A stretch of DNA of 46,058 nt from a virus. Positions within the stretch are counted from its first letter, which is position 1; every line of letters starts with the position of its first letter. Positions 1 to 39,844 of this stretch are shown in pieces. The stretch is from the IMG/VR virus record IMGVR_UViG_3300028920_000108, positions 1 through 46,058 of that record; one strand, given 5' to 3'. Under the pieces are notes generated by a model. The model made no database searches. It was not told the DNA's origin and saw only the letters and a list, made by a program, of their open reading frames with translations. A program made the translations under genes and the position numbers.

Positions 1-468
1 ACCCGCTTTTTTATACGCGGTAAAAGCGCCGGTCTCCGGGCAGGCTAAAAAGTAACCTACAGCCCCGCGCAAGTCGGACGCGCGCAAGTCGGACGCGCGC
101 AAGTCGGCCCCGGACAGGTTGGCCCACGACAGGTTGGCCCCGGACAGGTCGGCCACGGACAGGTTGGCCCCGGACAGGTTGGCAACGCGCAAGTCGGCCC
201 CGGACAGGGTGGCCCGCAACAGGTTGGCCCCGGACAGGTTGGCCACGGACAGGTTGGCCTTGAACAGGTTGGCCCTGAACAGGTTAGCACCGGACAGGTT
301 GGTCTTGAACAGGTTAGCAGCGGACAGGTTGGCCCCGGACAGGTTGGCCCCGGACAGGTTGGCCCTGAACAGGTTAGCACCGGACAGGTTGGCCCTTACG
401 CCCCCGTCTTCACCCCTGAGCCATTTCACGTGTGATTCCAGCACTTCTTTTAGTTCTTGTAGTTCCAT
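1..468 (-). CDS. Pentapeptide-repeat protein, 3' end outside window
   Basis: The reading frame starts at ATG 468-466 and stays open for 156 codons to the window edge, so the C terminus is missing. Residues 1-20 form a helical leader ([17 protein letters not shown]). About 20 uninterrupted A(N/D)LSx pentapeptides follow, and then a [19 protein letters not shown] stretch like the C-terminal module (DUF5758-type) of phage pentapeptide proteins. Pentapeptide repeats form a right-handed quadrilateral beta helix; some members mimic DNA to protect gyrase, but the target here is unknown. The start lies 2 bases after the stop of the DUF2800 gene, so it is the last gene seen in that minus-strand operon. 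In the second module copy only the leader survives. Domain call is firm, role is not. Confidence 0.88.
73..394. repeat. Degenerate 15-bp tandem repeat encoding pentapeptides
   Basis: The plus strand repeats units such as GGACAGGTTGGCCCC every 15 bases with substitutions (gccacggac, ccctgaac, gcgcaagtc variants). Each unit encodes one pentapeptide of the minus-strand protein. Such arrays can gain or lose units by slippage, so repeat number may vary among relatives. Confidence 0.85.
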
Positions 469-470
469 AG

Positions 471-1583
471 CTAAAATAACTCCTTTGTGTCTTTTTCGCC
501 AACTGCTATTTTATAAAGCGTTGGTTTATCGTACAGGTCGGAAATGTTCTCTTTTCCCGCCAGTCTCTCAACTTGCGCCGGGCTTTTTATCTTTCGCGGC
601 TGATAGAGCTTATCACCCAAAAAGCTAAGGCGCTTTTCAACTTCTTTTTCACTTATCCATTTTCTATGCCCCGAAGTCTCCTTTTTATACACAGAATCAA
701 AGCGCGTCCCGCTATCAATAAGGACACCAATTCTTTGCTCTACCGCGTCGAGAAAAGTTTTTATATATGAAGACATAACAAAAATATCTTCCAAACGCTC
801 GGCGCTTAACTCCTCAGCGCCAACGCCAGCACAGCTTTTAAAGCCCCCATACATCGCATGCATTGCAGGACAGACAACAACAGCCGGGCAAAACTTGCAT
901 TTTTCAGAAACATTGTAGTTGTCGCTGTTTGCACGTATGTATTTAATCCTATTCGGCAGATCGTCGGCTGAGGTTTCAAGCGGCATTGACACCGCCCGGC
1001 GCAGTTCATCCCAATACCCCGGCTGCACAACGTGACCGGTAAAGGTAGTAACACCCGCACCCCCGAAGCCCGAATAACTTAGGACATCGGCAGAAAAGGA
1101 AAGCTGTTCATACGCGCTTTCTGAATAGTCGAAATTACCGGTCTTAAGGTCGATAATGTCTATTATTATTTCGTTCTTACCCTTTACCTTAGTTATGAGC
1201 ATAGTATCGGCCTTAAATACGTTATCAACACCCAAACAGTCAAGGCGCTGTTTTCCCTCAACTACTAACTCACACTTGCCATACTTCCCGCGCTCCCGGA
1301 TGAGTTTTTTAAGATACTTACCGTATTCATTTACCATAAATTTGGCATCGTCATAATACGGCGCGTCCTTTTGTACGTGATCCTTTAGTGCCTGTATGAC
1401 AGTGCATTTTTTCCCGCTTGCTATGGCATTCGCGAGAGTTTCCGCAGCCGCGTGTATTGCTTTACCACGATCGGCAGCCGTCTTAAATGGGTTGTAGCGT
1501 AATTCTCTTGAGAGCCCTTCTTCCAGAGCTACAGAACCGGGACACGCCATAGCGCGCCCGACCATAGATGCAGTTAATTTCAT
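471..1583 (-). CDS. DUF2800-family PD-(D/E)XK nuclease with Fe-S-type cysteines (copy 1)
   Basis: A 370-aa protein of the DUF2800 family, a phage relative of the RecB/AddB/Cas4 nuclease domain. Visible features are ACPGS with C14, a putative metal-binding Asp in KADTMLI (D126), DLKTG at 145-149 (the (D/E)XK core), Q160, and the trio C229-C232-C238 in [12 protein letters not shown]. One early plus three late cysteines is the usual 4Fe-4S clamp of AddB/Cas4-type nucleases. The likely role is DNA end processing in phage recombination or replication, together with the DUF2815 ssDNA-binding protein encoded divergently nearby. It is followed after 2 bases by the pentapeptide gene. The second copy at 37309 differs at 17 of 370 residues and keeps all these residues. 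Confidence 0.85.
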
Positions 1584-1616
1584 TTATTTTATTCTCCTTT
1601 TGATTTTTTATTATTT

Positions 1617-2165
1617 TTAGCGGTTTTTTACTTGTACCGGCATTAGAATATATCGCAGATTTTCCACTAATTCCATAAGCACAGGCGAGAGCGGCCCCTG
1701 CACATATACGTTAAAAGGATCATCCGCGTATGTGAGTACATCTAAATACATAGGATTGATACACACACCGCGCTGCGCGAGTTCATACAACAGCTTACCA
1801 GTGTTTTGACCGTTTATGAGCTTATTTTTACCCGCGTTGCCTGATCCTGTAAATATATTCTCGGGGTCTACCTTTTCAGGGTCTGGCATAATTTTACTAA
1901 AGTCGGGAAAGCTAAATTCATCCGCGCTATGAAAGTTTAAGTCTATTTCAGATGATTTGCTTGATACGACTTTGTAAAACCCGTCCTTTTCACCCGCGAA
2001 ATTTTCACATGTAAACACTACCAAACGGCGCGAGTCTGAAGCGGAAAAGATAGCCCCTTCTTTGTAGATAAATTCAAATACCGGTTTTACTCCCTTTTCG
2101 TCCCGGCATAGATCAAGGATTTTGAAGCCTTTAAACTCGTCTTGCTGCTTGCTGATTTCAATCAT
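1617..2165 (-). CDS. Miniature DnaN/sliding-clamp-like protein (copy 1)
   Basis: A 182-aa protein carrying the landmark motifs of the C-terminal two thirds of bacterial DnaN in the right order. SASDSRRLVV (41-50) matches the ATDGHRLAV strand. FPDFSKIMP (86-94) matches the FPDYRRVLP linker. MYLDVLTYA (139-147) matches the SYVLDVLNAL helix. GPLSPVLM (157-164) plus the terminal YILMPVQV (172-179) match the SPVLI...YVIMPMRL end that builds the partner-binding pocket. Domain I and much of domain II are absent: a normal clamp is about 370 aa. It probably tethers the phage family A polymerase or nucleases to DNA, or occupies the host clamp pocket; which one is inference. It is first in the minus-strand operon with the DUF2800 gene. 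The motif match is by eye. Confidence 0.7.
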   Translation of the reverse strand: MIEISKQQDEFKGFKILDLCRDEKGVKPVFEFIYKEGAIFSASDSRRLVVFTCENFAGEKDGFYKVVSSKSSEIDLNFHSADEFSFPDFSKIMPDPEKVDPENIFTGSGNAGKNKLINGQNTGKLLYELAQRGVCINPMYLDVLTYADDPFNVYVQGPLSPVLMELVENLRYILMPVQVKNR

Positions 2166-2199
2166 TTGTTTTTTCTCCTTAACTTTTTGTTATAAGAAG

Positions 2200-2228
2200 A
2201 CAATATACACGGTTGCCCTATTAGTCAA
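2200..2228 (-). promoter_or_regulatory. Sigma70-like promoter for the clamp-like/DUF2800 operon
   Basis: On the minus strand TTGACT (2228-2223) and TATTGT (2205-2200) are separated by 17 bases and point at the gene starting at 2165. The same elements and spacing recur in copy 2 at 39066-39038. Confidence 0.6.
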
Positions 2229-2253
2229 CCGCTTTTATAAAAATTATAGAAAA

Positions 2254-2280
2254 AAAGTATAATTTTTTATGCTATACTTT
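2254..2280. promoter_or_regulatory. Operator-like inverted repeat between divergent promoters
   Basis: AAAGTATA (2254-2261) and TATACTTT (2273-2280) form an 8-bp inverted repeat with an 11-base centre, between the two divergent promoters. In copy 2 both arms are kept, and a base change also creates the direct palindrome AAAGTATACTTT. A regulator-binding site is a reasonable inference. Confidence 0.4.
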
Positions 2281-2290
2281 ATTTTTATGC

Positions 2291-2319
2291 TTGACCATAA
2301 CGCCCGCTTTGCCTATAGT
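2291..2319 (+). promoter_or_regulatory. Sigma70-like promoter for the plus-strand early operon
   Basis: TTGACC (2291-2296) and TATAGT (2314-2319) are spaced by exactly 17 bases, about 50 bases upstream of the DUF2815 start. The element is identical in copy 2 (39129-39157). Confidence 0.7.
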
Positions 2320-2370
2320 ACTACTATGATGTTACAATCATAAATCAAATTTAATCACAGAGGTGATACA

Positions 2371-2997
2371 ATGAGCAAAAAAACGAGCCGTTTGAGACTG
2401 GACAACGTGAGGGTAGTATATCCGTCATTGGATAAGCCAGCCAGCTTTGCGGGGCAAACAGAAGAGCAAGCAAAGTACGGAATTAAGTTCCTCGTCCCAA
2501 AAGGCGACAAAGCAGTCATTGACAACATAAAGGCTTTTTTAAAAGCAAATGTTGACAACGTGGATAAGTGGTCAAAGACCGCGAAAGCGCAAGTGTACAA
2601 AACCGCTATTGACCAAGACCCGTATAATGATAACTGTGTTATCAAAGACGGCGACAAAATCAATGCGCGCAGACTGGATGAGGAAAAAGAAGCAGTTGCA
2701 GCATACGAGGGTCATATTGTTATCGGCGCTAACCGCAATCAAAAAAAAGGCCCCCCTGTTGTTGTTGATCGTAACAACGAGCCTATAGACAAGGGTCTTA
2801 TCGCGGGCGAAATCGTTTCCGGCTACTGGGTAAACGCGTATGTTGATGCGTATTGTTACAACAAGCCAAAAAACGGGATTACTCTGTCACTGTATGCAGT
2901 ACAAAAAGTAAAAGAAGATGAGGTTTTTGGGCAGCCATCCCCTTTTGACGTAGTTGAGGGAGACGACGAAGAAGAAGACGAGCCTACTTTTGGCTAG
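2371..2997 (+). CDS. DUF2815 ssDNA-binding protein (copy 1)
   Basis: A 208-aa protein of the DUF2815 family, phage proteins considered single-stranded-DNA-binding or recombination-associated and typically encoded next to DUF2800 and family A DNA polymerase genes. The N terminus (LRLDNVRVVYPSLDKP), the PASFAGQTEEQAKYGIKFLV stretch and the very acidic tail (EGDDEEEDEPTFG) are characteristic. An acidic tail is common in SSB-like proteins that recruit partners. It has a GAGGTGAT ribosome site and its own promoter at 2291, and is followed by a hairpin. Copy 2 differs at 9 of 208 residues. Confidence 0.82.
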   Translation: MSKKTSRLRLDNVRVVYPSLDKPASFAGQTEEQAKYGIKFLVPKGDKAVIDNIKAFLKANVDNVDKWSKTAKAQVYKTAIDQDPYNDNCVIKDGDKINARRLDEEKEAVAAYEGHIVIGANRNQKKGPPVVVDRNNEPIDKGLIAGEIVSGYWVNAYVDAYCYNKPKNGITLSLYAVQKVKEDEVFGQPSPFDVVEGDDEEEDEPTFG

Positions 2998-3006
2998 GCA
3001 CACCAC

Positions 3007-3033
3007 GCCGCCCTTATGGGCGGCTAACTTTTT
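3007..3033 (+). terminator. Hairpin after the DUF2815 gene
   Basis: GCCGCCC (3007-3013), loop TTAT, GGGCGGC (3018-3024), then TAACTTTTT. It probably partially terminates transcription after the abundant DUF2815 message. The same hairpin with a 5-base loop occurs in copy 2 at 39845. Confidence 0.65.
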
Positions 3034-3047
3034 AAGGCGGGGCATGA

Positions 3048-3242
3048 GTGAAACTAAAAAAGATTTTCATACTTTTCGGCGCAGTGTTGCTTGCCTCTTT
3101 TGTCGTACACATATACTGCGCCGTTTCGTTATTTCTTTTGGGGCAAGACTGGCGGACGCTACTGCTGCCATTTTTAGGCGCGCTTTTTACCGGCGTTTTA
3201 GTGATAACGTTTTGTGATTTTATAACGCGTATGAAAGCATAA
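3048..3242 (+). CDS. Small two-helix membrane protein (copy 1)
   Basis: A 64-aa protein with GTG start at 3048. It has two hydrophobic segments, about residues 5-30 (IFILFGAVLLASFVVHIYCA) and 36-58 (LLLPFLGALFTGVLVITFCD), joined by a short loop, with a basic N terminus. Function unrecognised; a small inner-membrane protein is all that can be said. The protein is 100% identical to the one at 40152 and the DNA differs at only three positions, although its neighbours differ: here it precedes an 82-aa gene, in copy 2 it follows a 93-aa gene. An alternative frame starting at ATG 3044 gives a non-hydrophobic sequence and is rejected. Confidence 0.7.
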   Translation: MKLKKIFILFGAVLLASFVVHIYCAVSLFLLGQDWRTLLLPFLGALFTGVLVITFCDFITRMKA

Positions 3243-3283
3243 TCACAAAATTTAGCAAAAATAATAATAGGAGAATAAAAAAA

Positions 3284-3532
3284 ATGTTTAAAATAGACAA
3301 GGATAAGCCACAACCATTAAAGACAGACGAAAAAGCACCGGAGTTATTAGAAATAATAATAAAAGACAAAGAAACAGGCGAGGAGTTTATGAGAGAGGTC
3401 GTTCTTCAAAAACACTTTTCAACTGGTTCTGTTGGTTACTATGTCGGCGGCAAAATGACAAATCCTCAAAGTGGGGAACGTTACCAAGTTTCATGTAATA
3501 TCGCTTTAATAGGTTCAAAACCTAAAAAATAG
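3284..3532 (+). CDS. Hypothetical 82-aa protein
   Basis: Unrecognised. The protein is charged and soluble, with an acidic-basic N-terminal half (EIIIKDKETGEEFMREVV) and a beta-like C-terminal half (GSVGYYVGGKMTNPQSGE). It has an AGGAG site 8 bases before ATG 3284. It has no counterpart in copy 2, where this slot holds only a short remnant (40358-40453), so it belongs to the variable accessory part of the early operon. Confidence 0.6.
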   Translation: MFKIDKDKPQPLKTDEKAPELLEIIIKDKETGEEFMREVVLQKHFSTGSVGYYVGGKMTNPQSGERYQVSCNIALIGSKPKK

Positions 3533-3589
3533 CACATCACATAATTTAGTGAAAGTGAATTATTAATGTAAAAAGAGAGGACAAAACAA

Positions 3590-3769
3590 ATGATTGAATT
3601 TAACGATGGCGATTGTACAGGTTGCGGGCAGTGTGTTGAGTATTGCACAGGGGCCGCGTTTATACCAGAACCGGGATACGGGGTGCGCTTTATCGAGGCT
3701 AAATGCCTGCTCTGTGATAGATGTGAAGTATCTGATATATGTCCGGGTGACGCGGTAAAACAAAAGTAA
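3590..3769 (+). CDS. 2[4Fe-4S] ferredoxin-like protein (copy 1)
   Basis: A 59-aa protein with two complete cysteine motifs: C9-x2-C12-x2-C15-x3-C19 (CTGCGQCVEYC) and C39-x2-C42-x2-C45-x5-C51-P (CLLCDRCEVSDICP). Length, spacing and the internal pseudo-repeat match small bacterial-type ferredoxins that carry one or two electrons at low potential. It has a good AGAGAGG site and sits between a hypothetical gene and the 83-aa/SNF2 pair. All eight cysteines are kept in copy 2, where only three residues change (A22V, E36D, L41Q) while several codons change silently, which indicates selection on the protein. The redox partner is not identified; possibilities are a phage or host reductase, or supply of Fe-S to nucleases such as DUF2800. 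Confidence 0.8.
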   Translation: MIEFNDGDCTGCGQCVEYCTGAAFIPEPGYGVRFIEAKCLLCDRCEVSDICPGDAVKQK

Positions 3770-3788
3770 AAAAGGAGGAGTAAAACGA

Positions 3789-4040
3789 ATGAAGACACAG
3801 AAAAGAAAAAAGGTGCTGCGCCACTTGGAACTTACAGCAGATGAATCAAAGACCTTAAGTCGCCAAATATGCGAGATTAAAAAGGCGCTTCGTCCCCGCG
3901 TTCGGGCGACAAACGCAGAAGTCCTCTCAAGGCTTGTTATGTACGCCCTTCATAACGAAGAGGTCCTTCATAATGTATATACTGACATCATAGAGGACGC
4001 AAAAGAAGAGATACAACAGCGGGCAAGGGGGCAGGAGTGA
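3789..4040 (+). CDS. Hypothetical basic 83-aa protein upstream of SNF2 helicase (copy 1)
   Basis: Predicted all-helical, with a basic N terminus (MKTQKRKKVLRHLEL) and an acidic C-terminal helix (DIIEDAKEEIQQRARG). The middle (RVRATNAEVLSRLVMYAL) resembles the helical part of ribbon-helix-helix-type DNA binders, but this is not secure. It has a strong AGGAGG site, and its stop overlaps the GTG start of the SNF2 gene, indicating translational coupling and a probable shared function. The homologue at 40671 differs at four residues. Confidence 0.65.
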   Translation: MKTQKRKKVLRHLELTADESKTLSRQICEIKKALRPRVRATNAEVLSRLVMYALHNEEVLHNVYTDIIEDAKEEIQQRARGQE

Positions 4041-5401
4041 AACCGACCTTGCGAGCCGATCAACAAAAAGGAGTAGAATTCTTACAGGGCGTATTTGAGA
4101 AACATAAAGGCGCGCTGTGTGCTGATATTATGGGGCTTGGTAAGACTGCGCAAGCTATACACCTTATAAAGATGCGAGCAAGTTTTGATATGCCTGTATG
4201 TATCGCCGCCCCCGCTTATTTAGTGTATAACTGGCTTGACGAGCTTGAACTCTGGGGGTGCAAAAGTGACGTGTGCGTTATTGACAGTAAAAAGCAAGTG
4301 CTTCATGACGCCGAAATTTATATAGGCTCATACAACATGCTTGCAAGTGACGCGATACACAAGCAGCTATTAAAAAAGACGTTTTCTCTTTTGTGTTGTG
4401 ATGAGGCGCACACTTTCCGAACGTGGAACTCTATACGGTCAAGGCGGTTGCTTGGAACCTTCCAGAATAAGAAAAGTAATCTTTTGTACCGGTCAAAAAA
4501 TGCGTTGTTACTCACAGGAACCCCTATTGTCAACAGTGTTGAGGACATCTACAATATAGTAGTCCGCATAGCTCCGGAAGTTTTACGGAAGTATGATAAA
4601 ATGTCGTTTCTTGCTGGATTTGCGGGGTTCTTGCAATACTCGCCGTATGGGGTAAAGCCTGTAGGCGTGAAAAATGAAAAGCAGTTACACAAAATCTTAT
4701 CGAGTGTCATGCTTCGCCGATCAGAAATTCCCGGCATAAAAGAGGTCACCCCGGCGCGCATACCGTTGCAGCTTAAAGGGGCAAAGCTAAAAAAGTTCAT
4801 GAAAGAGGAAAATGACTTTTTACAGCGGTACAGCATAGAAGTTGAGGACATCTTAAAGGGGCAGGATAGTAACACCCCGGCAGCGTGTGAATTTGCGGCA
4901 CTTAGGACACAAACGGCGCTGCATAAAATTCCGCTCATACTTCCGGCGATAGTTGATGCGTATGAGTGCGGAATTAGGCCGGTAGTCTATTGCTGGCATA
5001 AAGCAGTTCAAGAGGCGCTGTTTACCGAGCTCGACAGAAAATGTAAAGGTGCAGATATTGCGATAGTAAACGGCACACAAAGCCCTAAGTGCCGGGCGGG
5101 TATTGTTAAAAAATACCAAGCGGGTGAAATTGATATACTTTTGCCAACTATCGGCGCACTTAAAGAAGGCGTGAATCTGACAGAAGGGCGGTTGGTTATT
5201 TTTGTTGAGTTACCGTATACGCCCGCGGAAGTTGATCAAGTTATCGCCCGGTTTAATAGGACAGGTCAAAAGGGGTTAGTAGTTGCAAAAATGTTTTATT
5301 TTAAGGACGGAATTGATGCGTATATCATGCGATTACTCGACAGGAAGCGTGACGTTATACAAAAAAGTTTAAGAGATACGCAGTTTAAAAAGGAGGCGTG
5401 A
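4037..5401 (+). CDS. SNF2-family DEAH helicase (copy 1)
   Basis: 454 aa, GTG start overlapping the previous stop. Motifs in order: Q-like TLRADQQKG at the N terminus, Walker A IMGLGKT (31-37), CCDEAH (Walker B, 120-125), LLLTGTP (motif III, 157-163) and ARFNRTGQKG (motif VI, 404-413). This is the minimal SNF2 ATPase core with both RecA lobes and no accessory chromatin domains, typical of phage SNF2 proteins. It translocates on double-stranded DNA using ATP; in phages it is thought to help remodel replication or recombination intermediates. Copy 2 at 40919 is the same length, with all motifs conserved. Confidence 0.9.
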   Translation: MKPTLRADQQKGVEFLQGVFEKHKGALCADIMGLGKTAQAIHLIKMRASFDMPVCIAAPAYLVYNWLDELELWGCKSDVCVIDSKKQVLHDAEIYIGSYNMLASDAIHKQLLKKTFSLLCCDEAHTFRTWNSIRSRRLLGTFQNKKSNLLYRSKNALLLTGTPIVNSVEDIYNIVVRIAPEVLRKYDKMSFLAGFAGFLQYSPYGVKPVGVKNEKQLHKILSSVMLRRSEIPGIKEVTPARIPLQLKGAKLKKFMKEENDFLQRYSIEVEDILKGQDSNTPAACEFAALRTQTALHKIPLILPAIVDAYECGIRPVVYCWHKAVQEALFTELDRKCKGADIAIVNGTQSPKCRAGIVKKYQAGEIDILLPTIGALKEGVNLTEGRLVIFVELPYTPAEVDQVIARFNRTGQKGLVVAKMFYFKDGIDAYIMRLLDRKRDVIQKSLRDTQFKKEA

Positions 5402-5404
5402 AAG

Positions 5405-5584
5405 ATGGAAAAAATAATACAGATACAGACAGATTTAACTCCAGAAGAAACAAACGAACAGGGGGTTGTTATAAAATACAGTGTTATGATAACCGCGCTT
5501 ACTAATTACGGTAGAGTGCTGCAAAAGACATATGCAGGAAACTGGAACGAAGTAGAAACAAAATCTTTTAAAAAGAAGGCGTAA
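5405..5584 (+). CDS. Conserved 59-aa hypothetical protein (copy 1)
   Basis: A small ORF starting 3 bases after the SNF2 stop, preceded by AAAGGAGG. It has a short acidic N terminus then a beta-type sequence (GVVIKYSVMITALTNYGRV). Not recognised. The copy at 42287 has the same length and differs only at three internal residues and the last two or three, so it is a real gene rather than a chance frame. Confidence 0.7.
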   Translation: MEKIIQIQTDLTPEETNEQGVVIKYSVMITALTNYGRVLQKTYAGNWNEVETKSFKKKA

Positions 5585-5615
5585 CCAATGGAAAGATTTA
5601 TGGTAGGGGGAGGAA

Positions 5616-5876
5616 ATGCTTGAAAGAACTAACCAACCGGAAGAAAAAAACATCGTCTCACACCCGTCACATTATACCGATGTTGTGCCGGGTATAGAGT
5701 GCATTGAGGTTACACGCCACTTTAATTTTTGCCGTGGGAACGCCATAAAATATATTTGGCGCGCGGGGCGTAAAGACCCGTCAAAAGAAATTGAAGACCT
5801 TAGAAAAGCGCGGGAGTATATCGATATTGAAATCGGTCGACTTGAGCAAGAACGATATGAAAGGGAGGAAGAATAA
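5616..5876 (+). CDS. DUF3310 protein (nucleotide kinase-like phage protein)
   Basis: 86 aa. The motif HPSHYTD near the N terminus, followed by IECIEVTRHFNFCRGNAIKY and IWRAGRKDPSKEIEDLRKA, is diagnostic of DUF3310, a small widespread phage family often annotated as nucleotide kinase-like; its biochemical activity is not established. It has a GGGGGAGGA ribosome site. The gene is absent from copy 2, where the 59-aa ORF is followed directly by the MazG-like gene. Confidence 0.85.
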   Translation: MLERTNQPEEKNIVSHPSHYTDVVPGIECIEVTRHFNFCRGNAIKYIWRAGRKDPSKEIEDLRKAREYIDIEIGRLEQERYEREEE

Positions 5877-5878
5877 AA

Positions 5879-6142
5879 ATGGAAATACAAGAAATCGCAA
5901 TAAGAGCAAAGAAAATAATAGAACACTACGGGCCTATACACCAACGCAACAAATTATTAGAAGAGCTTGACGAACTTGAAAACGCAATAGAAAAAGAGGA
6001 CAGCCAAAACATAACAGAAGAGTCGGCGGATTGCTTTTTAGTACTGCTCCAACTTTATTTGATTGATGATAACATGAGACGTGTGACAAGATATAAGGCT
6101 GACAGGACAATTGCGCAAATGACGGAGGAAGGCGAAAAATGA
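5879..6142 (+). CDS. MazG-like nucleotide pyrophosphohydrolase (copy 1)
   Basis: 87 aa, all-helical. EELDELENAIEKE (about 23-35) and ITEESADCFLVLLQL (about 42-56) form the EExxE...ExxxD metal-binding pattern of MazG/dUTPase-like enzymes, and the tail KADRTIAQM is also typical. It probably hydrolyses NTP or dNTP to the monophosphate. Starts 2 bases after the DUF3310 stop. Compared with copy 2, the first half is strongly diverged while the second half is nearly identical, suggesting recombination inside the gene. Confidence 0.72.
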   Translation: MEIQEIAIRAKKIIEHYGPIHQRNKLLEELDELENAIEKEDSQNITEESADCFLVLLQLYLIDDNMRRVTRYKADRTIAQMTEEGEK

Positions 6143-6321
6143 AAGAATGGAAACGGGAAAACTGTACTAGTTGTAACAGTGACTTGTCGGGCGTATCCGG
6201 TAGATCGCAAAGCGGCGGCGTAATTTTTAAAATCTGCCCGCGATGCGGGGGAGTGAACTTTTTCGACGCTTTAAGCGAAAAATTGGTCTCAAATGATACC
6301 AAAATGAGCGAAAAAGATTAA
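6139..6321 (+). CDS. Small zinc-ribbon protein
   Basis: 60 aa; ATG overlaps the MazG-like stop (ATGA). CTSC at 9-12 and CPRCGG at 33-38 form a zinc-ribbon knuckle pair, and the polar tail is short. Zinc ribbons of this size usually contact nucleic acid or another protein; the role is unknown. In copy 2 only the last 22 codons remain (44427-44495), after two methyltransferase genes. Confidence 0.65.
   Translation: MKEWKRENCTSCNSDLSGVSGRSQSGGVIFKICPRCGGVNFFDALSEKLVSNDTKMSEKD
6283..6302. promoter_or_regulatory. Imperfect TTGGTATCA palindrome inside the zinc-ribbon gene
   Basis: TTGGTCTCA (6283-6291), AA, TGATACCAA (6294-6302): 9-base arms with one mismatch. The same word recurs at 19917, 34691 and 44457. 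Confidence 0.35.
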
Positions 6322-6351
6322 AATTAGAATAAGAAAGGAGAATACGGAAAG

Positions 6352-6705
6352 ATGAAAATTTGGCAATACAAACAGATAGACCCGACGGACTCCGAATGGG
6401 ATGCTTACGAGATCATAGAGTGGTATGGGCCGAATGATGACGATTACAAATACGTATCGACTCATGTAGTAAATGAATCAGACGCCCGCTTAATGACAAC
6501 AGCGCCGGAAATGCTTGATTGCTTGATTAACGCTATAAAAACACAAAAAGAATGGGTGAACGTCTGTAATTCGTTAACCGAGAAAGCCGGGGTGGATAAT
6601 CAAGAACCTAAAAGCTGGAAAAAAGAAGTTAATCAAGAAATCTTGAAGACTATCGAAAAAGCAACCGGAAAAACTATTGAAGAGGTGTTGAAAGATGAAA
6701 GCTGA
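6352..6705 (+). CDS. Hypothetical 117-aa protein (copy 1)
   Basis: Unrecognised. The N-terminal half is aromatic and beta-like (MKIWQYKQIDPTDSEWDAYE, then IIEWYGPNDDDYKYVS), followed by a segment like MTTAPEMLDCLINAIKTQK, a pattern common in small phage proteins of unknown role. The C-terminal third is charged and helical (ILKTIEKATGKTIEEVLK). It has an AAAGGAG site and its end overlaps the ParB-like start by 11 bases. The copy at 44814 is the same length and about 92% identical. Confidence 0.65.
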   Translation: MKIWQYKQIDPTDSEWDAYEIIEWYGPNDDDYKYVSTHVVNESDARLMTTAPEMLDCLINAIKTQKEWVNVCNSLTEKAGVDNQEPKSWKKEVNQEILKTIEKATGKTIEEVLKDES

Positions 6706-7324
6706 ACTCATAGACATAAAACTTGTAAAAATACACCCGGAGCTAGACGAGCACTTTAAACGGGATGAAACCACTGTTGAGAACCTTAGAAAATCGATGG
6801 AAAAAAGGGGCTTCGACAAGAAACACCCGCTTATTATCTGGGAAGAGACCGGGTATTTAGTAGACGGACACACCCGCCGGGAAGCGGCAAGACGCGCGGG
6901 GATAAGCTACGCTCCCGCCATATTTGAAAGTTTCGCCTCTATAGAGGACGTGAAAGCCTATATGGACAGGACACAGTACCACCGCCGGAACTTGTCACAG
7001 CGCGACCGGGTGGAATTACTGCAAAGAGACGCGGCTTATGAGGCAGCAAAAAACAAAAAGCAGTACATAGTTGATCACATGGGGATAAGTCCAGCCAGCG
7101 CCGCGCGGATTATGGCAATCCTTCGGGATCCTGAAAAGCTTCGGGCGCTTATGGCGGGTGAAGCCATATCAAGCGGTAAACGGGCCAAAAAGAAAGAAGA
7201 TATACAAGACCCTTCAGAGGGCGAAAAAAGCCCCGTAGAGGCGCTCTCGGAGGCTCTCAGAGCCTATCAGGAGGCAACGGGGGAGAAGCTGACACCGCGG
7301 AAGATTAAGGAATTGCTTAGATAG
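6695..7324 (+). CDS. ParB/Srx-like N-terminal domain protein (copy 1)
   Basis: 209 aa. The N-terminal ParB-type fold is shown by IKLVKIHPELDEHF, the KHPLIIWE strand and DGHTRREAARRAGI (57-70), the GxxRxxA box. A helix-turn-helix-like central part follows (KQYIVDHMGISPASAARIMA), then a basic linker and a C-terminal helical domain (GEKLTPRKIKELLR). Phage stand-alone ParB proteins act as DNA-binding regulators, nucleases or CTP-dependent clamps; which applies is not clear. It is last in the early operon, followed by a strong terminator. Copy 2 at 45157 is the same length. Confidence 0.82.
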   Translation: MKAELIDIKLVKIHPELDEHFKRDETTVENLRKSMEKRGFDKKHPLIIWEETGYLVDGHTRREAARRAGISYAPAIFESFASIEDVKAYMDRTQYHRRNLSQRDRVELLQRDAAYEAAKNKKQYIVDHMGISPASAARIMAILRDPEKLRALMAGEAISSGKRAKKKEDIQDPSEGEKSPVEALSEALRAYQEATGEKLTPRKIKELLR

Positions 7325-7351
7325 CCGGGAGAAACCCCGGCTTATTTTTTT
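7323..7351 (+). terminator. Rho-independent terminator of the early operon (copy 1)
   Basis: AGCCGGG (7323-7329), loop AGAAAC, CCCGGCT (7336-7342), then TATTTTTTTA. It lies immediately after the ParB-like stop and between convergent genes. It is conserved at 45785. Confidence 0.88.
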
Positions 7352-7353
7352 AT

Positions 7354-7854
7354 TTAATACTCTCTGTAAAGGTACTCAGGCGGGCTTATTCTCTTATCAT
7401 ATCGAGAAATTTCGTTCCTAACCTCGATAAAAGGAATGTCGCGATTTAAGTAATCAGCGATAGCCGGGTTGTCGTCCATCCCGCACTTTAAGCAAGAATA
7501 CCAATCTATAATGCGGGTTAGCTGCCGAAAACCACACTCTCTGCATTCATAAAGACAAAGATCGTCCTCATTGGCAAAGCCGAGTTCTGTTAATAAAAAG
7601 CAGCCCTCCTTGTCTTGTTCGAAGAGCTTGAACTTATCAATCCGCTCATTATGAGCGCCCTTAACTTCAATGTAGTTATCTAATTCATACAAATAAAAAT
7701 CCGGGACGTACAGACGCCCATCAGATAGTTTTATGGTATGCGGCTCGTATAGCCACTTAAACCCGAGAAAATCAAGATAATAAGCCGCTTGCGCCTCAAG
7801 GCGTGAGCGAAACATAACACCTTTATATGGCGTTTCTTTGGCGATTATTTCCAT
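7354..7854 (-). CDS. PD-(D/E)XK nuclease with C-terminal zinc ribbon (copy 1)
   Basis: 166 aa. FRSRLEAQAAYYLDFLGFKW (about 16-35) supplies the early Glu. YVPDFYL (about 49-55) and YIEVKG (about 61-66) complete the PD...ExK catalytic core of the TnsA/T7 endonuclease I-like nuclease group. The second half contains CRECGF and CLKCG, a four-cysteine zinc ribbon. It probably cuts or processes phage DNA. It starts directly after the PrimPol-SF3 stop (TAAATG), so it is co-translated with the primase-helicase. The truncated homologue at the right end of the window confirms that the gene belongs to the conserved module. Confidence 0.8.
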   Translation of the reverse strand: MEIIAKETPYKGVMFRSRLEAQAAYYLDFLGFKWLYEPHTIKLSDGRLYVPDFYLYELDNYIEVKGAHNERIDKFKLFEQDKEGCFLLTELGFANEDDLCLYECRECGFRQLTRIIDWYSCLKCGMDDNPAIADYLNRDIPFIEVRNEISRYDKRISPPEYLYREY

Positions 7855-10188
7855 TTAAAATACTCCTCCCTCTGATTGATCAAGCGCGTTCTCACGAATG
7901 CGCAATAGATAAATATCCCTATCGCGGTTTTTCGGGTCTTCTGCCGTTGGGATATCATGCTGTACCAAAAGCAATTTCAAACTCTTCTTACGAAATCTCA
8001 AATTATTCGTATAGCCCCGGTAGTCCTCCAAAAGTGACATAATCGAATCGGCGTCTTTGGGATCCTCGACCTGTTCACACCGATCTTCAAACCACTGGAC
8101 AAAGGTGTCCTCATCATCTAAATATTCACGGCTTGCCGCGTCCACAATAGAGCAAGACGGCAAAACCCGCCCGCTTTCAGACCACATTTTCGCGCCCGCG
8201 ATAAGCCAGTTTAACACTCCGCTTGACTCAAGTTTTAATTTATCCGTTAACTCTCTATCCTGTTGTGCTTCGGGAACGGAAAAAGAAAACGGAATGAGCT
8301 TTATACGGTCGCGCGTGGCCTTATCTACATGTGTAATTATAGGCTTGTGATTCGTAATAAGCACAGGTTTAAACGTCGGTACAAACTTAAATTTAGATCG
8401 GTGCTTACGTTCACATTCGGTCACGTCCCCGCCGGTAAGCACCTTTACCAGTGACATATTAAGCCGCGCATTTTGCTCTGATTCGTTGGCGACTATAAAC
8501 CGTTTGCCGGGAAAGTCAGATAGGGCGAAGCGGTTAGTATTGCCCTCACGGCTTGCAAGGTCTTGCGTAAAACATACCCCGGCGTAGTCCCCGAGAATGT
8601 GCATCATGACGTTTATCAGCGTGCTCTTACCGTTTGCCCCCGTTCCGTAAAATATCGGAAAAATACGGTCGCCTGTTGTACCTTTTAACGCGCTACCGAG
8701 AAAACATTGAACCCACTGTATAAGCTCTGCGTTGCCTTCAAATATTTGATCAAGAAATTTTTCCCAAATAGGACACAATGCTTCTGGTTTATAGTCTGTA
8801 TTACATGAATATGTTGAATAGTGGGCGTAATCAAACGGTATGGGCTTAAATGTATCAAGGTCAAACGCGGTATTTTTAAAGTTTATAAGGCTATGCCGCG
8901 AATTCATCATAGGAAAGCGCCCGGCGGTGTCCTCTTCTGCGGCGGCAAATCCCTTTTTATCCTTTAAGAAATCAAGCGCGGCGGTTATATAATTAGCATT
9001 TAGCATCGAGTTTTGTTGCTGGACACAGCGGCCGTATACTTTTTCCCGACCTTTTTCTGTAAGCTGCGCGGAGGATAGTTTTTCAGTTTCTAAAGGATAT
9101 TTGTCCTTAATAATACGCGACACCGTGGAAAGCGGTTTTACAATATTATCGATCCAGCGTTTCCCGTTAAAAACGAACCACGAGGCCGAATTTATGTTGT
9201 ATATTATACGCCCGCTTGGCAGATACCGCGCGACCCGTTCGCTTAAGCCCTCTTGATTTGGCGGGAATACTTCAATATTTTCATGTTGTTTCCTGATAGA
9301 ATCACGCCATTCAATTATTTTATCGGCTTCTTTTTCAAAATCCCTATCGCCGGTGTAGGATAAACGCGGGAACTCTAATAGGACTTTCTCCTTTATTACA
9401 GATTTTGTATGTCCTTGGCAGAATAAAGAGCAGATAAGTGTTTTTAAGTGGTCGTGCCGCCCGCCCTCTTCGACCGGCGGGAGCTCCTCAATTGCTTTTT
9501 TGTATTGCGGCGAGTTCTCCCAACGGTGATTTATACGAACATTTTCGACCGCGTATCTGTTTGTATAATCTGCGTGTACAATCTCATAATGCAGCCCTTT
9601 ATGCGGCTTGTTTTTTCTTACCGCTGTATACGGGAGTCGCATCCACCGCCCCGGATTGTTTATTGATGTATCTGAGTGATAGTATTTTATAAGCGTTTCC
9701 ATTGTGTCGCGCCAAAGGTCAAAATCGTCTGTCTCAGTAATGAACCAGTATACATGGTGACCTTTTTTGTCTTGACGGGAGGCGATAACTGTAGGCTCAA
9801 GTGGGAAATCTTCGGGGAGGGGCCCGTTGTCTATGTCAATCCATACAGCATTAGGGGCGCTGACGTTGTTATCACATATAGAATAATCTACGGTTGGACT
9901 GTATTCTTCCAATTCTTTAATCTCATAAATCGCGTTGCCCTGTTCATCCGTACCTATTTTATGCGATAGTGAGAAAACGGTATTAGGAATATAGTATACA
10001 TTCTTATTCTGATCGTTAGCCTTTAATAGTATGTCTCTTGCCACGTCAAAAGAGGGCGCGAGCTTCGCGAAAAACCCATCTTTTTTGCCCGGTAGCGTGT
10101 AGACAAACGGCGCGCCGGACAGTAATTGCCGGTAAAATTCCGATACTTTTTCCTGTTGTTGATGTAATATATGCGATTTTTCTGCCAT
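7855..10188 (-). CDS. PrimPol-SF3 primase-helicase (D5/VapE-type replication protein)
   Basis: 777 aa, a fusion of two replication activities. The N-terminal archaeo-eukaryotic primase domain shows WIDID (116-120, catalytic hDhD), SRQDKKGHHVYW (137-148) and DTSINNPGRWMRLP (173-186). A D5_N-like linker follows. The superfamily 3 helicase domain has Walker A GTGANGKST (515-523), FIVANESE (564-571), sensor-like PVLITNHKP (608-616) and RDRIKLIPF (626-634). It should prime and unwind at the phage origin. Only one copy is visible, since copy 2 runs off the right end before reaching it. The upstream non-coding region holds repeats that could be its binding sites. Confidence 0.92.
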   Translation of the reverse strand: MAEKSHILHQQQEKVSEFYRQLLSGAPFVYTLPGKKDGFFAKLAPSFDVARDILLKANDQNKNVYYIPNTVFSLSHKIGTDEQGNAIYEIKELEEYSPTVDYSICDNNVSAPNAVWIDIDNGPLPEDFPLEPTVIASRQDKKGHHVYWFITETDDFDLWRDTMETLIKYYHSDTSINNPGRWMRLPYTAVRKNKPHKGLHYEIVHADYTNRYAVENVRINHRWENSPQYKKAIEELPPVEEGGRHDHLKTLICSLFCQGHTKSVIKEKVLLEFPRLSYTGDRDFEKEADKIIEWRDSIRKQHENIEVFPPNQEGLSERVARYLPSGRIIYNINSASWFVFNGKRWIDNIVKPLSTVSRIIKDKYPLETEKLSSAQLTEKGREKVYGRCVQQQNSMLNANYITAALDFLKDKKGFAAAEEDTAGRFPMMNSRHSLINFKNTAFDLDTFKPIPFDYAHYSTYSCNTDYKPEALCPIWEKFLDQIFEGNAELIQWVQCFLGSALKGTTGDRIFPIFYGTGANGKSTLINVMMHILGDYAGVCFTQDLASREGNTNRFALSDFPGKRFIVANESEQNARLNMSLVKVLTGGDVTECERKHRSKFKFVPTFKPVLITNHKPIITHVDKATRDRIKLIPFSFSVPEAQQDRELTDKLKLESSGVLNWLIAGAKMWSESGRVLPSCSIVDAASREYLDDEDTFVQWFEDRCEQVEDPKDADSIMSLLEDYRGYTNNLRFRKKSLKLLLVQHDIPTAEDPKNRDRDIYLLRIRENALDQSEGGVF

Positions 10189-34724: not shown

Positions 34725-34910
34725 TTAGCTGATTACACCGCTTTCAATTAACTTTTTATACGTATTGTACATAGCGTCAATATTGCCCCGCTGCGCAGTT
34801 TTGTAAATGCTGCCTTTTGTCTGGCCTATGGCATCACAGTGTTTTTTATCCGCGTGCGAAAGTAACACCGCGCGTAAATTTTGTTGCAGTAATTCATATT
34901 GTTTGTCCAT
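34725..34910 (-). CDS. Small HTH-like protein (61 aa)
   Basis: Start ATG 34910 is chosen for its GAGGGGGCGG site; a longer frame would overlap the previous gene by 83 bases. The protein contains AIGQTKGSIYKTAQRG, similar to the HTH-like core of the protein at 10996-11229, and DAMYNTYKKLIESGV at the end. A small DNA-binding regulator is likely. It overlaps the resolvase-like gene by 17 bases. Confidence 0.55.
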   Translation of the reverse strand: MDKQYELLQQNLRAVLLSHADKKHCDAIGQTKGSIYKTAQRGNIDAMYNTYKKLIESGVIS

Positions 34911-35319
34911 CGTCCGCCCCCTCTTGCAGTGCGGGCGCGCGGTACAGCGCCCATAATAATGTTGGCAAATTTTCAAGGTTTATGTAACTCCCCGCTTTGT
35001 ACTCTATAGTAAAACAATCCTCTTCGCGACCAAAGACCTCAAAGCTGGCGGTGCGGCAGTGAGAGCGTGTACAAAGGAAACGGAGTACAAAAGACATCCC
35101 CCCGGCGTCTGCGACTTCTTGCAGCGCCTTCTTTTGATGGGGCTCTAATTTTGCCGCTCCTTTTTTTGCTTCTATCGCATAAAAGACACCGCTTGCTAAC
35201 ATGTAACAATCAAACGGCTTTTTCTGCCCGCCGTAGGTGTCCGCTTCGCGGTATACATACGCAGCAGCATGCTTTTTTAATTGCCTTAAAAAATCCCGGA
35301 GTAACTCGCGTTCGGTCAT
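34894..35319 (-). CDS. PD-(D/E)XK resolvase-like nuclease (VRR-NUC/Hjc type)
   Basis: 141 aa. TERELLRDFLRQLKK at the start, PFDCYML (Asp) and YAIEAKKGAAKL (ExK), then KLEPHQKKALQEVADAGG, form the core of small phage nucleases of the VRR-NUC/Holliday-resolvase type. It probably resolves branched DNA before packaging. The ATG overlaps the DNA polymerase stop (ATGA). Confidence 0.75.
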   Translation of the reverse strand: MTERELLRDFLRQLKKHAAAYVYREADTYGGQKKPFDCYMLASGVFYAIEAKKGAAKLEPHQKKALQEVADAGGMSFVLRFLCTRSHCRTASFEVFGREEDCFTIEYKAGSYINLENLPTLLWALYRAPALQEGADDGQTI

Positions 35320-37223
35320 TTATGGTACCTCCTTGAAATCTCGCTTTCTGTTGACAGCGGGAACCCCGGAAGCCACGCGGGGGCGGTGTTTGTCACGCTG
35401 TCAAAAATCTTTTGTTTCTCCTTTACATCCTTGCGCGCTGTTTGGCAGATAATTTCATCATGCACATGAAACGCGGTGTCAAGCCCCCTCTCTTGTAATC
35501 GTAGCATACAATCCGCGAGTATGTCGCGGCACATAGCCTGTACAACGTTTTCAGCGAGTAACCCGCCGTAAAGCTGAACGCGCCTATTTTGTGAGTGATT
35601 AAAAAAAGATACACCGTCCCCGCTTGCTTCAATGTCATGATAGAAAAGCTCACGGCCAGAAGGCAAGCGCACCGCAATGTATCTATTTTTTGCCCTAACT
35701 TGTATGTGTTTTCCTACGTATACTTTGTGATGTTCTTTGCGTCTGGAATAGTATAAAGAAAACGCGCTTTCAAGCTCATACCAAAACGATACGATTTTTC
35801 TATTAGCCCCGCGCCAGTCCTTTATTACGCGTACCATATCGTCTTCTGACAAGCCCAACTTATCCGCGCCGAATTGATACAGCGCCCCCACTGCGCCTTG
35901 ATAGCCAAGAGCAAGCTCCGCGACCTTGCCCACTTTTCTTTCCTTGCTGCCCGGTTCGATGCTCGAAATCGGACGGTTTAAAATTTTGGCGGCTGAGGCC
36001 TCATATATTTTACCGTGGGTTTTAAAAACATCCAGCCGCCACGTTTCACCGGCAAGATAGGCGAGCCCCCGCGCTTCAATCGCGGAAAAGTCACCCATGA
36101 TAAAAGTCTCTCCGGTCGGTGCTTGAATGAGACCGGGGAGTATCTTTTGTGCAGCCCCTAAAAATTCCGCACGGTCTGTCATAGCCGGAACGGCTTTTAT
36201 AAGGTTGTTTATTTCCTTTTCATCCGTCCCGGTTTTTATGAGGTTATGCGGCTGGAAACCCCGGCCCGACCACCGGCCAGTATTAGCACCGAAATAAAAA
36301 AGCGTATAGCGTATACGGCTGTCTTTTGCAGTCATCGAAAGCAGACTTTTAAATTTCTTGACGCTTGACTTACCCAAAAATCGACGAAGTTCACACGCTT
36401 CGGCCACCTCCTTTTTTGGATTCATACCCAAAATTGTGTCAATAGTGTCTTTTCTGGTGTTGTCAACGTGCACACCGTTTTTTGCAAAAAATTCAAGTAA
36501 CTGTTTGGGACTCCTTACATTGACACCTAAGCTTTCCGCCTCTTCCTCTGCTTTTACAGTTAACTCATCTAACTTTTTAATTACAGTCTGCGCGCCCTTA
36601 ACGTCAACGGGTAGCCCCTCAACGTTTAACTTAAAATCTTGTAAGAAGACCGGACGCTCGAGTTTTACATTTTTCATATTTCTCAAAATAGTGTAAATCT
36701 CAAATTCCGCCCACGTATCAACACGGCAATATTCAAACATGGCCTTTTTATCCGCCCCGGTGAGAGGGCGTAATTTTTTTTCTTTTGTCTTGCGATCGGT
36801 GTACGGTTTTGAGTATTTATTGATAAGAGCCTTCCCGCTTGATAACTTTTGGTGCTTTACTTTTAACACCCGCGCCACGTCATCCAGCGACCCCGGCAAC
36901 CCCACACATTTAGCCATAGCGCGTGTGCAATGCCAATTGTCAGCAAGTCGCATACGCTCTGGAAATCCGTGCTGCCCAATACATACGTTACAGACAAGCG
37001 CGTATTCAAAGAGCGAATTATGCGCAATATATACCGCGTCTTCTTTAAAAAATTCTTCTGGTACGGCTTCGCCCGGTTGCCATAACTTGGGCGCTTTCAT
37101 CTCTGGGGTCATCCACGCCATGCAAAAAACACCGGTTGTCTCATGCTCTGAATACACCCACGCGCCCGCGGCATTAAGGTCGCAAAAGGAATATGTTTCA
37201 AAGTCAAAAATTATCTCAGTCAT
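35316..37223 (-). CDS. Family A DNA polymerase
   Basis: 635 aa. The N-terminal 3'-5' exonuclease has DFET (7-10), HNSLFEY (68-74) and CRVDTWAEFEIY (166-177). Polymerase motifs are TGRWSGRGFQPHNL (315-328), motif A MGDFSAIEAR (376-385), motif B RKVGKVAELALGYQG (429-443) and motif C HVHDE (586-590). It is the compact replicative polymerase of the DUF2800/DUF2815-type phages. The ATG overlaps the stop of the 28-aa ORF upstream (ATGA). An equivalent gene probably lies just left of the window, beyond the pentapeptide gene. Confidence 0.95.
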   Translation of the reverse strand: MTEIIFDFETYSFCDLNAAGAWVYSEHETTGVFCMAWMTPEMKAPKLWQPGEAVPEEFFKEDAVYIAHNSLFEYALVCNVCIGQHGFPERMRLADNWHCTRAMAKCVGLPGSLDDVARVLKVKHQKLSSGKALINKYSKPYTDRKTKEKKLRPLTGADKKAMFEYCRVDTWAEFEIYTILRNMKNVKLERPVFLQDFKLNVEGLPVDVKGAQTVIKKLDELTVKAEEEAESLGVNVRSPKQLLEFFAKNGVHVDNTRKDTIDTILGMNPKKEVAEACELRRFLGKSSVKKFKSLLSMTAKDSRIRYTLFYFGANTGRWSGRGFQPHNLIKTGTDEKEINNLIKAVPAMTDRAEFLGAAQKILPGLIQAPTGETFIMGDFSAIEARGLAYLAGETWRLDVFKTHGKIYEASAAKILNRPISSIEPGSKERKVGKVAELALGYQGAVGALYQFGADKLGLSEDDMVRVIKDWRGANRKIVSFWYELESAFSLYYSRRKEHHKVYVGKHIQVRAKNRYIAVRLPSGRELFYHDIEASGDGVSFFNHSQNRRVQLYGGLLAENVVQAMCRDILADCMLRLQERGLDTAFHVHDEIICQTARKDVKEKQKIFDSVTNTAPAWLPGFPLSTESEISRRYHK

Positions 37224-37306
37224 ATCAATACTCTATCGCCTCCGTCTGCACCACTTAACCATTTCACATGTAATTCCAGCACTTCTTTTAGTTCTTGTAG
37301 TTCCAT
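37220..37306 (-). CDS. 28-aa remnant leader of the pentapeptide gene (copy 2)
   Basis: ATG 37306 to TGA 37220. The first 17 codons equal the helical leader of the pentapeptide protein at 1-468 except for one residue; then the repeats are missing, and the frame ends in ATGA overlap with the polymerase gene. It is either a deletion derivative or a short leader peptide that couples translation to the polymerase. Confidence 0.6.
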   Translation of the reverse strand: MELQELKEVLELHVKWLSGADGGDRVLI

Positions 37307-37308
37307 AG

Positions 37309-38421
37309 CTAAAATAACTCCTTTGTGTCTTTTTCGCCAACTGCTATTTTATAAAGCGTTTGTTTATCGTACAGGTCTGAAATGTTCTCTTTTCCCGCTA
37401 ACCTTTCAACTTGCGCCGGGCTTTTGATCTTTCGCGGCTGATAGAGCTTGTCACCCAAAAAGCTGAGGCGCTTTTCAACTTCTTTTTCACTTATCCATTT
37501 TCTATGCCCCGAAGTCTCCTTTTTATACACCGAATCAAATCGCGTTCCGCTATCAATGAGAACACCGATTCTTTGTTCAACCGCGTCAAGAAAGGTTTTC
37601 ATGTACGAGGACATAACAAAAATATCTTCCAAACGCTCCGCGCTTAACTCCTCAGCGCCAACGCCGGCGCAGCTTTTAAAGCCCTCGTACATCGCGTGCA
37701 TTGCAGGGCATACCACAACGGCCGGACAAAACTTGCATTTTTCAGAAACATTGTGGCTGTCACTGTTTGCGCGGATATATTTAATCCTATTCGGCAGATC
37801 GTCGGCTGAGGTTTCAAGCGGCATTGACACCGTCCGGCGCAGGTCATCCCAGTAGCCGGGCTGTACAACATGACCGGTAAAAGTAGCAACAGCCGCGCCG
37901 CCGAAGCCTGAAAAGCTCAAAATATCGGCAGAAAATAAAAGCTGTTCATAGGCGCTTTCAGAGTAATCAAAATTTCCGGTCTTAAGGTCGATAATGTCTA
38001 TTATTATTTCGTTCTTACCCTTTACCTTAGTTATGAGCATAGTATCTGCTTTAAATACGTTATCAACACCCAAACAGTCAAGGCGCTGTTTGCCCTCGAC
38101 TACCAACTCACACTTACCGGACTTCCCACGCTCCCGGATAAGTTTTTTAAGATACTTACCGTATTCGTTTACCATAAATTTGGCGTCATCATAATACGGC
38201 GCGTTCTTTTGTACGTGCTCCTTTAGCGCCTGTATGACCGTGCATTTTTTCCCGCTTGCTATAGCATTCGCGAGAGTTTCTGCAGCCGCGTGTATCGCTT
38301 TACCACGATCGGCAGCCGTCTTAAATGGGTTGTAGCGCAATTCTTTTGATAGGCCCTCTTCTAAAGATACGGAGCCGGGGCACGCCATAGCGCGCCCGAC
38401 CATTGATGCAGTTAATTTCAT
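37309..38421 (-). CDS. DUF2800-family PD-(D/E)XK nuclease (copy 2)
   Basis: 370 aa with 17 substitutions relative to the gene at 471, none in the putative catalytic DLKTG or in the cysteines (C14, C229, C232, C238). Most changes are conservative. It is followed after two bases by the 28-aa remnant and then the DNA polymerase, so in this copy nuclease and polymerase form one operon, the usual arrangement for this replication module. Confidence 0.85.
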   Translation of the reverse strand: MKLTASMVGRAMACPGSVSLEEGLSKELRYNPFKTAADRGKAIHAAAETLANAIASGKKCTVIQALKEHVQKNAPYYDDAKFMVNEYGKYLKKLIRERGKSGKCELVVEGKQRLDCLGVDNVFKADTMLITKVKGKNEIIIDIIDLKTGNFDYSESAYEQLLFSADILSFSGFGGAAVATFTGHVVQPGYWDDLRRTVSMPLETSADDLPNRIKYIRANSDSHNVSEKCKFCPAVVVCPAMHAMYEGFKSCAGVGAEELSAERLEDIFVMSSYMKTFLDAVEQRIGVLIDSGTRFDSVYKKETSGHRKWISEKEVEKRLSFLGDKLYQPRKIKSPAQVERLAGKENISDLYDKQTLYKIAVGEKDTKELF

Positions 38422-38454
38422 TTATTTTATTCTCCTTTTGATTTTTTATTATTT

Positions 38455-39003
38455 TTAGCAGCTTTTTACTTGTACTGGCATTAGAATATACCGCAGATTT
38501 TCCGCTAATTCCATAAGCACCGGCGAGAGCGGGCCGGTTACGCACACTTGGAAAAGATCGTCCGCGTATGTGAGTACATCCAAATACATAGTATTAATGC
38601 AGACACCGCGCTGCGCGAGTTCATACAACAGCCTACCAGTGTTTTGACCGTTTACGAGCTTATTTCTACCCGCGTTGCCTGATCCTGTAAATATATTCTC
38701 GGGGTCTACCTTTTCAGGGTCTGGCATAATTTTACTAAAATCAGGAAATTCAAATTCATCCGCGCTGTGAAAATTTAGGGCTATTTCGGATGCCTTACTT
38801 GATACAACTTTGTAAAACCCGTCCGTTTCACCCGCGAAATTTTCGCACGTAAGCACTGCCAAACGGCGCGAGTCCGAAGCGGCAAAGGTTACCCCCTCTT
38901 TGTAAATAAATTCAAATACCGGTTTTACTCCCTTTTTGTCTCGGCATAGATCAAGGATTTTAAAGCCCTTAAACTCGTCTTGCTGTTTGCTAATTTCAAT
39001 CAT
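38455..39003 (-). CDS. Miniature DnaN/sliding-clamp-like protein (copy 2)
   Basis: 182 aa. The motif AASDSRRLAV (41-50) is even closer to the DnaN consensus than in copy 1, and FPDFSKIMP, YLDVLTYA, GPLSPVLM and YILMPVQV are all unchanged. Substitutions fall mostly outside these. Two diverged copies with intact motifs and the same unusual short length argue that the truncation is the functional form rather than decay. Operon order with the DUF2800 gene is preserved. Confidence 0.7.
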   Translation of the reverse strand: MIEISKQQDEFKGFKILDLCRDKKGVKPVFEFIYKEGVTFAASDSRRLAVLTCENFAGETDGFYKVVSSKASEIALNFHSADEFEFPDFSKIMPDPEKVDPENIFTGSGNAGRNKLVNGQNTGRLLYELAQRGVCINTMYLDVLTYADDLFQVCVTGPLSPVLMELAENLRYILMPVQVKSC

Positions 39004-39037
39004 TTTCGTACGCTCCTTAACTTTTTGTTATAAGAAG

Positions 39038-39066
39038 ACAATATACACGGTTGCCTCATTAGTCAA
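39038..39066 (-). promoter_or_regulatory. Sigma70-like promoter, minus strand (copy 2)
   Basis: TTGACT (39066-39061) and TATTGT (39043-39038), 17-base spacing; same as copy 1 despite changes in the spacer. Confidence 0.6.
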
Positions 39067-39091
39067 CCACTTTTATAAAAATTATAGAAAA

Positions 39092-39118: not shown

Positions 39119-39128
39119 ATTTTTATGC

Positions 39129-39157: not shown

Positions 39158-39208
39158 ACTACTATGATGTTACAATCATAAATCAAATTTAATCACAGAG
39201 GTGATGCA

Positions 39209-39835: not shown

Positions 39836-39844
39836 GCACAACAC

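Follow-up and report, generated by a model that had tools for sequence, protein, structure and literature searches.

A putative half-size relative of the DnaN sliding clamp, encoded twice in a phage replication module

What could a phage do with a sliding clamp reduced to about half its length? The question is raised by a 182-aa ORF at 1617-2165 on the minus strand of the window (the whole stretch of DNA that was analysed, 46,058 nucleotides of IMG/VR virus record IMGVR_UViG_3300028920_000108). The ORF listing and the sequence place AAGGAG ahead of its ATG. A sequence-only reading had located this gene correctly and had missed that the window carries it twice:

1617-2165, minus strand: half-size DnaN-like protein, copy 1 (P0001), 182 aa, assigned by DnaN profile and pocket tests
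38455-39003, minus strand: half-size DnaN-like protein, copy 2 (P0002), 182 aa, 88% amino acid identity to copy 1

Both copies have an intact frame and a ribosome-binding site. Between them dS was 0.37 and dN/dS 0.17, indicating that the protein is under purifying selection, and we conclude that the ORF is a genuine gene. The neighbouring duplicated genes were more constrained (dN/dS 0.03-0.08), and dN of the clamp-like gene was 1.4-3 times theirs. This higher dN and the short length would suit a once full-length dnaN gene in decay. Such decay is hardly credible given the low dN/dS at this divergence, the intact frames and ribosome-binding sites, and partner-binding pocket residues that are identical in the two copies.

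The second copy belongs to a larger duplication of the early region, in which 399-7595 and 37237-46058 align in blocks sharing 88-98% DNA identity (dS 0.37-0.85). The two early regions lie ~37-38 kb apart and flank one set of structural genes. The arrangement resembles a tandem of two related prophages, or a joined pair, and not a terminal repeat. No tRNA was found in the window, nor any kin of it in the genome collection.

The genes around the two copies form a replication module:

471-1583, minus strand: DUF2800 / PD-(D/E)XK nuclease, encoded directly after copy 1 (Pfam E 7e-21; phrog_69 exonuclease)
2371-2997, plus strand: Enc34/Gp2.5-like single-strand DNA binding protein (SSB), divergent from copy 1 (PF10991 E 2e-24)
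4037-5401, plus strand: SNF2-type helicase (PF00176 E 3e-26)
7855-10188, minus strand: primase-helicase, D5_N / DUF5906 (Pfam and PHROG matches)
34894-35319, minus strand: 141-aa ORF with a 4-base overlap with the polymerase stop, nuclease-like by eye (IEAKKG)
35316-37223, minus strand: family A DNA polymerase in the operon of copy 2 (PF00476 E 4e-15; phrog_17 E 7e-90)
37309-38421, minus strand: DUF2800 nuclease downstream of copy 2, 95% identity to the copy 1 nuclease

On the copy 2 side, the clamp-like gene, the DUF2800 nuclease, the family A polymerase and the 141-aa ORF follow one another on the minus strand with tight spacing, an apparent operon headed by the clamp-like gene. The copy 1 side leaves the window past the nuclease and a pentapeptide-repeat ORF. 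The sequence-only reading had already grouped the gene with a nuclease and a family A polymerase in one module; this holds, with the polymerase adjoining the nuclease in copy 2 only. The 141-aa ORF had no Pfam match, and relatives have a VRR-NUC gene at its position in the module order. The SSB, SNF2 helicase and primase-helicase round out a replication module found in many phages. The pentapeptide-repeat ORF lies at 1-468 (minus strand) after the copy 1 nuclease; its copy 2 equivalent at 37224-37306 (minus strand) retains only the first two dozen codons, ahead of the polymerase start. We also observed a 59-aa ferredoxin-like ORF with 4Fe-4S motifs at 3590-3769 (plus strand) within the replication region.

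Is the protein related to DnaN at all? Searches of Pfam, PHROG and PDB sequences gave no match above cut-off for either copy, the sole Pfam match listed for copy 2 falling under it. The NCBIfam model TIGR00663 (dnaN) matched copy 2 over the model's last 50 positions (E = 0.098 over 18,950 models, 11.6 bits); its curated cut-off of 137.65 bits was reached by neither copy, and copy 1 and a six-frame search of the window had no match. Strong scores from our first DnaN profiles were discounted, because the DnaNs had been picked via the protein's own FPDxxKIMP motif and the support was lost in a control hhalign without those sequences (five DnaNs, not significant).

We therefore rely on 118 bacterial DnaNs from several groups that were picked by TIGR00663 alone, without motif selection. 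When their HMM was run over 5002 sequences, copy 2 came out on top (E 0.034, compared to 0.78 for the best shuffle) and copy 1 took fifth place. Comparison by hhalign aligned residues 34-179 of the two-copy pair with DnaN 163-367 (score 26.3). Single copies scored 30.9 and 29.2, copy 1 aligning over 134-179 only, and all of these scores exceeded the highest of 400 shuffles (24.1). When the ORFs of the retrieved viral loci were searched, 12 genuine clamps came first, followed by copy 2 (E 0.053) and a 210-aa ORF of locus L020 (E 0.054). By profile, the resemblance to DnaN exceeds chance, though only modestly.

The stronger evidence comes from the residues themselves. Four DnaN landmarks had been reported in order within the 182 aa, and the 119-DnaN alignment places them at residues 42-177, where they correspond to the pocket segments of the beta clamp:

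2022-2042, minus strand: ASDSRRL, residues 42-48, matching DnaN ATDGHRL 171-177, pocket subsite I (119-DnaN alignment)
1884-1910, minus strand: FPDFSKIMP, residues 86-94, matching DnaN FPDYRRVLP 241-249, pocket subsite I (119-DnaN alignment)
1743-1760, minus strand: INPMYL, residues 136-141, matching DnaN FNVSYV, with pocket residues N320 and Y323 (119-DnaN alignment)
1635-1652, minus strand: YILMPV, residues 172-177, matching the DnaN C terminus YVVMPM, subsites I and II (119-DnaN alignment and hhalign)

The beta-clamp pocket comprises R152, L155, T172, G174, H175, R176, L177, P242, R246, V247, N320, Y323, V344, V360, M362, P363, M364 and R365 (PMC11139829). All 18 positions were occupied in the 182-aa protein. 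Fifteen of the 18 residues were DnaN-like, defined as occurring in at least 5% of DnaNs at that position, and 8 of 18 were the commonest DnaN residue; the unusual ones include H175 -> R and R365 -> Q. None of 2,540 column-shuffled, re-aligned versions reached the score of 15 (maximum 12), although the pocket includes many top-conserved DnaN positions, some of which any remote relative would retain. Eleven unrelated window proteins scored 0-6, and three half-size clamps of the family phrog_3007 scored 12-17. As judged from the alignment, the pocket test is the best evidence for clamp identity.

An unrelated phage protein with DnaN-like motifs by chance would explain the lack of a profile match over cut-off, the failure of both the phrog_3007 hhalign and the five-DnaN control to reach significance, and an AlphaFold model that was unusable (pLDDT 32.7, from an alignment of just the two copies). 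It would not readily explain why the unselected 118-DnaN tests and the pocket test surpass shuffles, why unrelated window proteins score so low in the latter, or why the matches are collinear and reach the C terminus in both proteins. We regard coincidence as distinctly improbable, and these comparisons suggest that the 182-aa protein is very probably a remote relative of the clamp.

Domain I is absent, and the protein is ~180 residues shorter than DnaN (about 366 aa, three domains). About half of the positions of II-a, II-b and III-a were covered, and III-b almost whole. The TD-to-FPD spacing was 44 residues compared to a median of 71 in DnaN, and the FPD-to-MP spacing 88 compared to 120, which agrees with the earlier description of a missing domain I and shortened spacing. 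The beta dimer interface sets Ile78 and Phe106 of domain I against Ile272 and Leu273 (PMC11139829). The domain III side of this interface falls in a half-covered stretch, where I and F align at 272/273, an uncertain alignment. Because the domain I side (Ile78, Phe106) is gone, a beta-type dimer ring is impossible, and the exclusion of the usual head-to-tail ring by the sequence-only reading stands.

How might such a protein work? As our best explanation, plausible though tentative, we infer that it is a DnaN-derived clamp mimic of half size that forms no beta-type ring and whose pocket binds clamp-binding peptides, those of host partners being likelier. Relative to DnaN, domain I is gone and roughly half of what lies between the two ends of domains II/III has been deleted, while the segments forming the pocket for clamp-binding motifs were retained. 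The protein may then act as a monomer or a non-beta oligomer, with the pocket binding short clamp-binding peptides of replication proteins. Host proteins would be the likelier clients, namely the clamp-loader delta, the host polymerase and other clamp clients, either drawn off the host clamp or recruited onto phage DNA. Beta mutants that form no ring bind delta ~50-fold more tightly than dimeric beta and do not make Pol III processive (PMC11139829). By analogy, a protein with the pocket and without the ring parts would be expected to bind peptides without conferring processivity.

The sequence-only reading had proposed looking for clamp-binding motifs in phage proteins. A canonical motif was found in 0 of the 58 other called window proteins, with 3.9 expected by shuffling (weak evidence: Poisson probability ~0.02, with early genes counted twice). 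This hints at a possible depletion of such motifs in the window, not significant enough alone. Because the phage proteins have no canonical motif, any peptide partners are more likely to be host proteins. The acidic charge of the protein (pI 4.9; DnaN median 5.1) also counts for the best explanation, being DnaN-like and unlike that of positively charged monomeric viral clamps. Counting against it are the lack of a library profile over cut-off, the weakness of copy 1 alone, the H175 -> R and R365 -> Q changes, and a place beside the polymerase that fits a direct role in replication equally well.

Such a direct role would make the protein a dedicated processivity factor of the phage family A polymerase, part of the replisome and binding the polymerase and DNA, either monomeric or assembled into a ring from more than two copies. 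We consider this possible. It would account for the operon shared with polymerase and nuclease, and the acidic overall charge of the protein is that of ring clamps. In addition, a search based on the polymerase gave 80 loci at 31-36% identity, only two of which (L015 and L020, from phages with the same polymerase module) carry clamp-like ORFs. The polymerase has no canonical clamp-binding motif, however, the interface lacks its domain I side, and the window showed no clamp loader gene. A clamp-like ORF was detectable in just 2 of 86 loci with this polymerase, which indicates that the polymerase does not generally depend on one. Capture of host proteins is thus favoured over a polymerase tether only modestly.

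The L020 ORF (L020:3856-4485, plus strand) is a short DnaN-like ORF of 210 aa (hhalign to the 118 DnaNs, P = 1.6e-4) that comes immediately after the genes for the DUF2800 nuclease and the SSB in a polymerase A phage. In L015, a divergent full-length DnaN-like clamp of 411 aa (L015:12345-13577, plus strand) lies behind the SNF2 gene in the same replication module. Other searches brought no nearer kin. No close relative emerged when viral and genome contigs were scanned with either the protein or the two-copy alignment, and a terminase search gave relatives at 42-44% only, none with a clamp-like ORF. A motif pattern search yielded full DnaNs and one phrog_3007-like protein, and an alignment including DnaN fragments was too diverse to serve as a query. 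A 29% tblastn match to Stenotrophomonas phage polymerases was rejected, none of the clamp motifs being common to both.

The sequence-only reading took a clamp this short not to be a described functional type. This proved mistaken, as many phages have annotated beta-clamp-like proteins of half size (170-266 aa). A tblastn search of phage records with E. coli DnaN gave many matches limited to domains II-III. Five such genes that we inspected (170-224 aa) carry the label DNA polymerase III beta subunit or beta clamp and belong to phrog_3007. Examples of this family are found in Escherichia phage rolling (170 aa), Serratia phage Eta (gp10, 179 aa) and Klebsiella phage ZCKp20p (178 aa), and a scan of IMG/VR found relatives encoded in 332 stretches. 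The phrog_3007 profile matched DnaN at 99.5% probability over 129-370, with ~60 residues deleted from the first half of domain III. A predicted model of one member (pLDDT 92.7, pTM 0.88, just two long helices) had E. coli DnaN as its best PDB match (E 5.7e-8, TM 0.68 by query length), and a structure search with this model revealed many short phage beta-like proteins in BFVD. Half-size phage clamps are thus a kind known by annotation, in hundreds of phage sequences; literature searches found no experimental or functional study of them. PHROG labels phrog_3007 a RusA-like (Holliday junction) resolvase (e.g. L095:2983-3519). Because members match the PHROG processivity-factor family and also, for the most part below cut-off, the DNA_pol3_beta Pfam domains, this label appears to be a misannotation.

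Phages repeatedly encode DnaN relatives of about half length in which the pocket is kept and domain I dropped. That all of these, the 182-aa protein included, form a ring-less, pocket-only class capturing host clamp-binding proteins is rather doubtful. If true, DnaN would have been stripped to starve host replication or to supply the phage replisome, and the beta-clamp pocket would serve as a tool in its own right where phage and host compete for replication proteins. Another extreme, a small clamp that builds a ring from more than three copies, is just as conceivable. Archetypal clamp rings are assembled from two or three subunits with six domains in all (PMC9690074), and ring-forming half-size clamps would break that two-or-three-subunit rule. 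Phages of E. coli, Klebsiella and Salmonella carry well-conserved relatives, which offer a practical entry point for tests.

Among known systems, DnaN (TIGR00663) shares with the 182-aa protein the collinear landmarks and all pocket positions of II/III; it differs in having domain I, ~180 more residues and the beta-type dimer interface. Shortened phage clamp relatives likened to it by description are Burkholderia phage AH2 gp20 (209 aa; a published half-size clamp annotation, PMC3483164), Bacillus phage Sam46 gp53 (217 aa; a published short beta-like annotation, PMC8190038) and the proteins of BcepNazgul (237 aa) and Escherichia phage Seurat (246 aa), all of which carry pol III beta or processivity factor as their annotation. 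The herpesvirus factors UL42 and UL44 are ring-less, monomeric or dimeric, positively charged and bind DNA directly (PMC9690074). Likened by description, they are a precedent for ring-less clamps, whereas the 182-aa protein is acidic. Phage Twort Gp168 inhibits the host clamp by binding its DNA channel (PMC11139829) and would be comparable, as a phage protein that targets the function of the host clamp, if the 182-aa protein does capture host partners.

The closest comparison is with phrog_3007, which is likewise phage-encoded, about half the length of DnaN and without domain I, and keeps the pocket and the DnaN C terminus. The 182-aa protein fits its length range (~170-220 aa) and its layout of domain II and C-terminal III. 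The phrog_3007 family HMM nevertheless scored it below shuffles, and hhalign gave a probability of 1.4% (not significant). The spacing is also different, with 44 residues before FPD compared to 66 in phrog_3007 and 88 after it compared to 68. Members of phrog_3007 have a pI of 5.4-9.6, mostly neutral to basic, compared to 4.9, and their signatures DVRYYLNG, ATDGHR and GRFPDxxRVIP stand against GVKPVFEF, ASDSRR and SFPDFSKIMP. The polymerase A / DUF2800 operon is likewise a setting unlike that of phrog_3007. The 182-aa protein looks like an independent or strongly diverged case of the same type of architecture. Judged by these alignments, it is an unusually divergent half-size clamp-like protein whose deletion pattern differs from that of phrog_3007.
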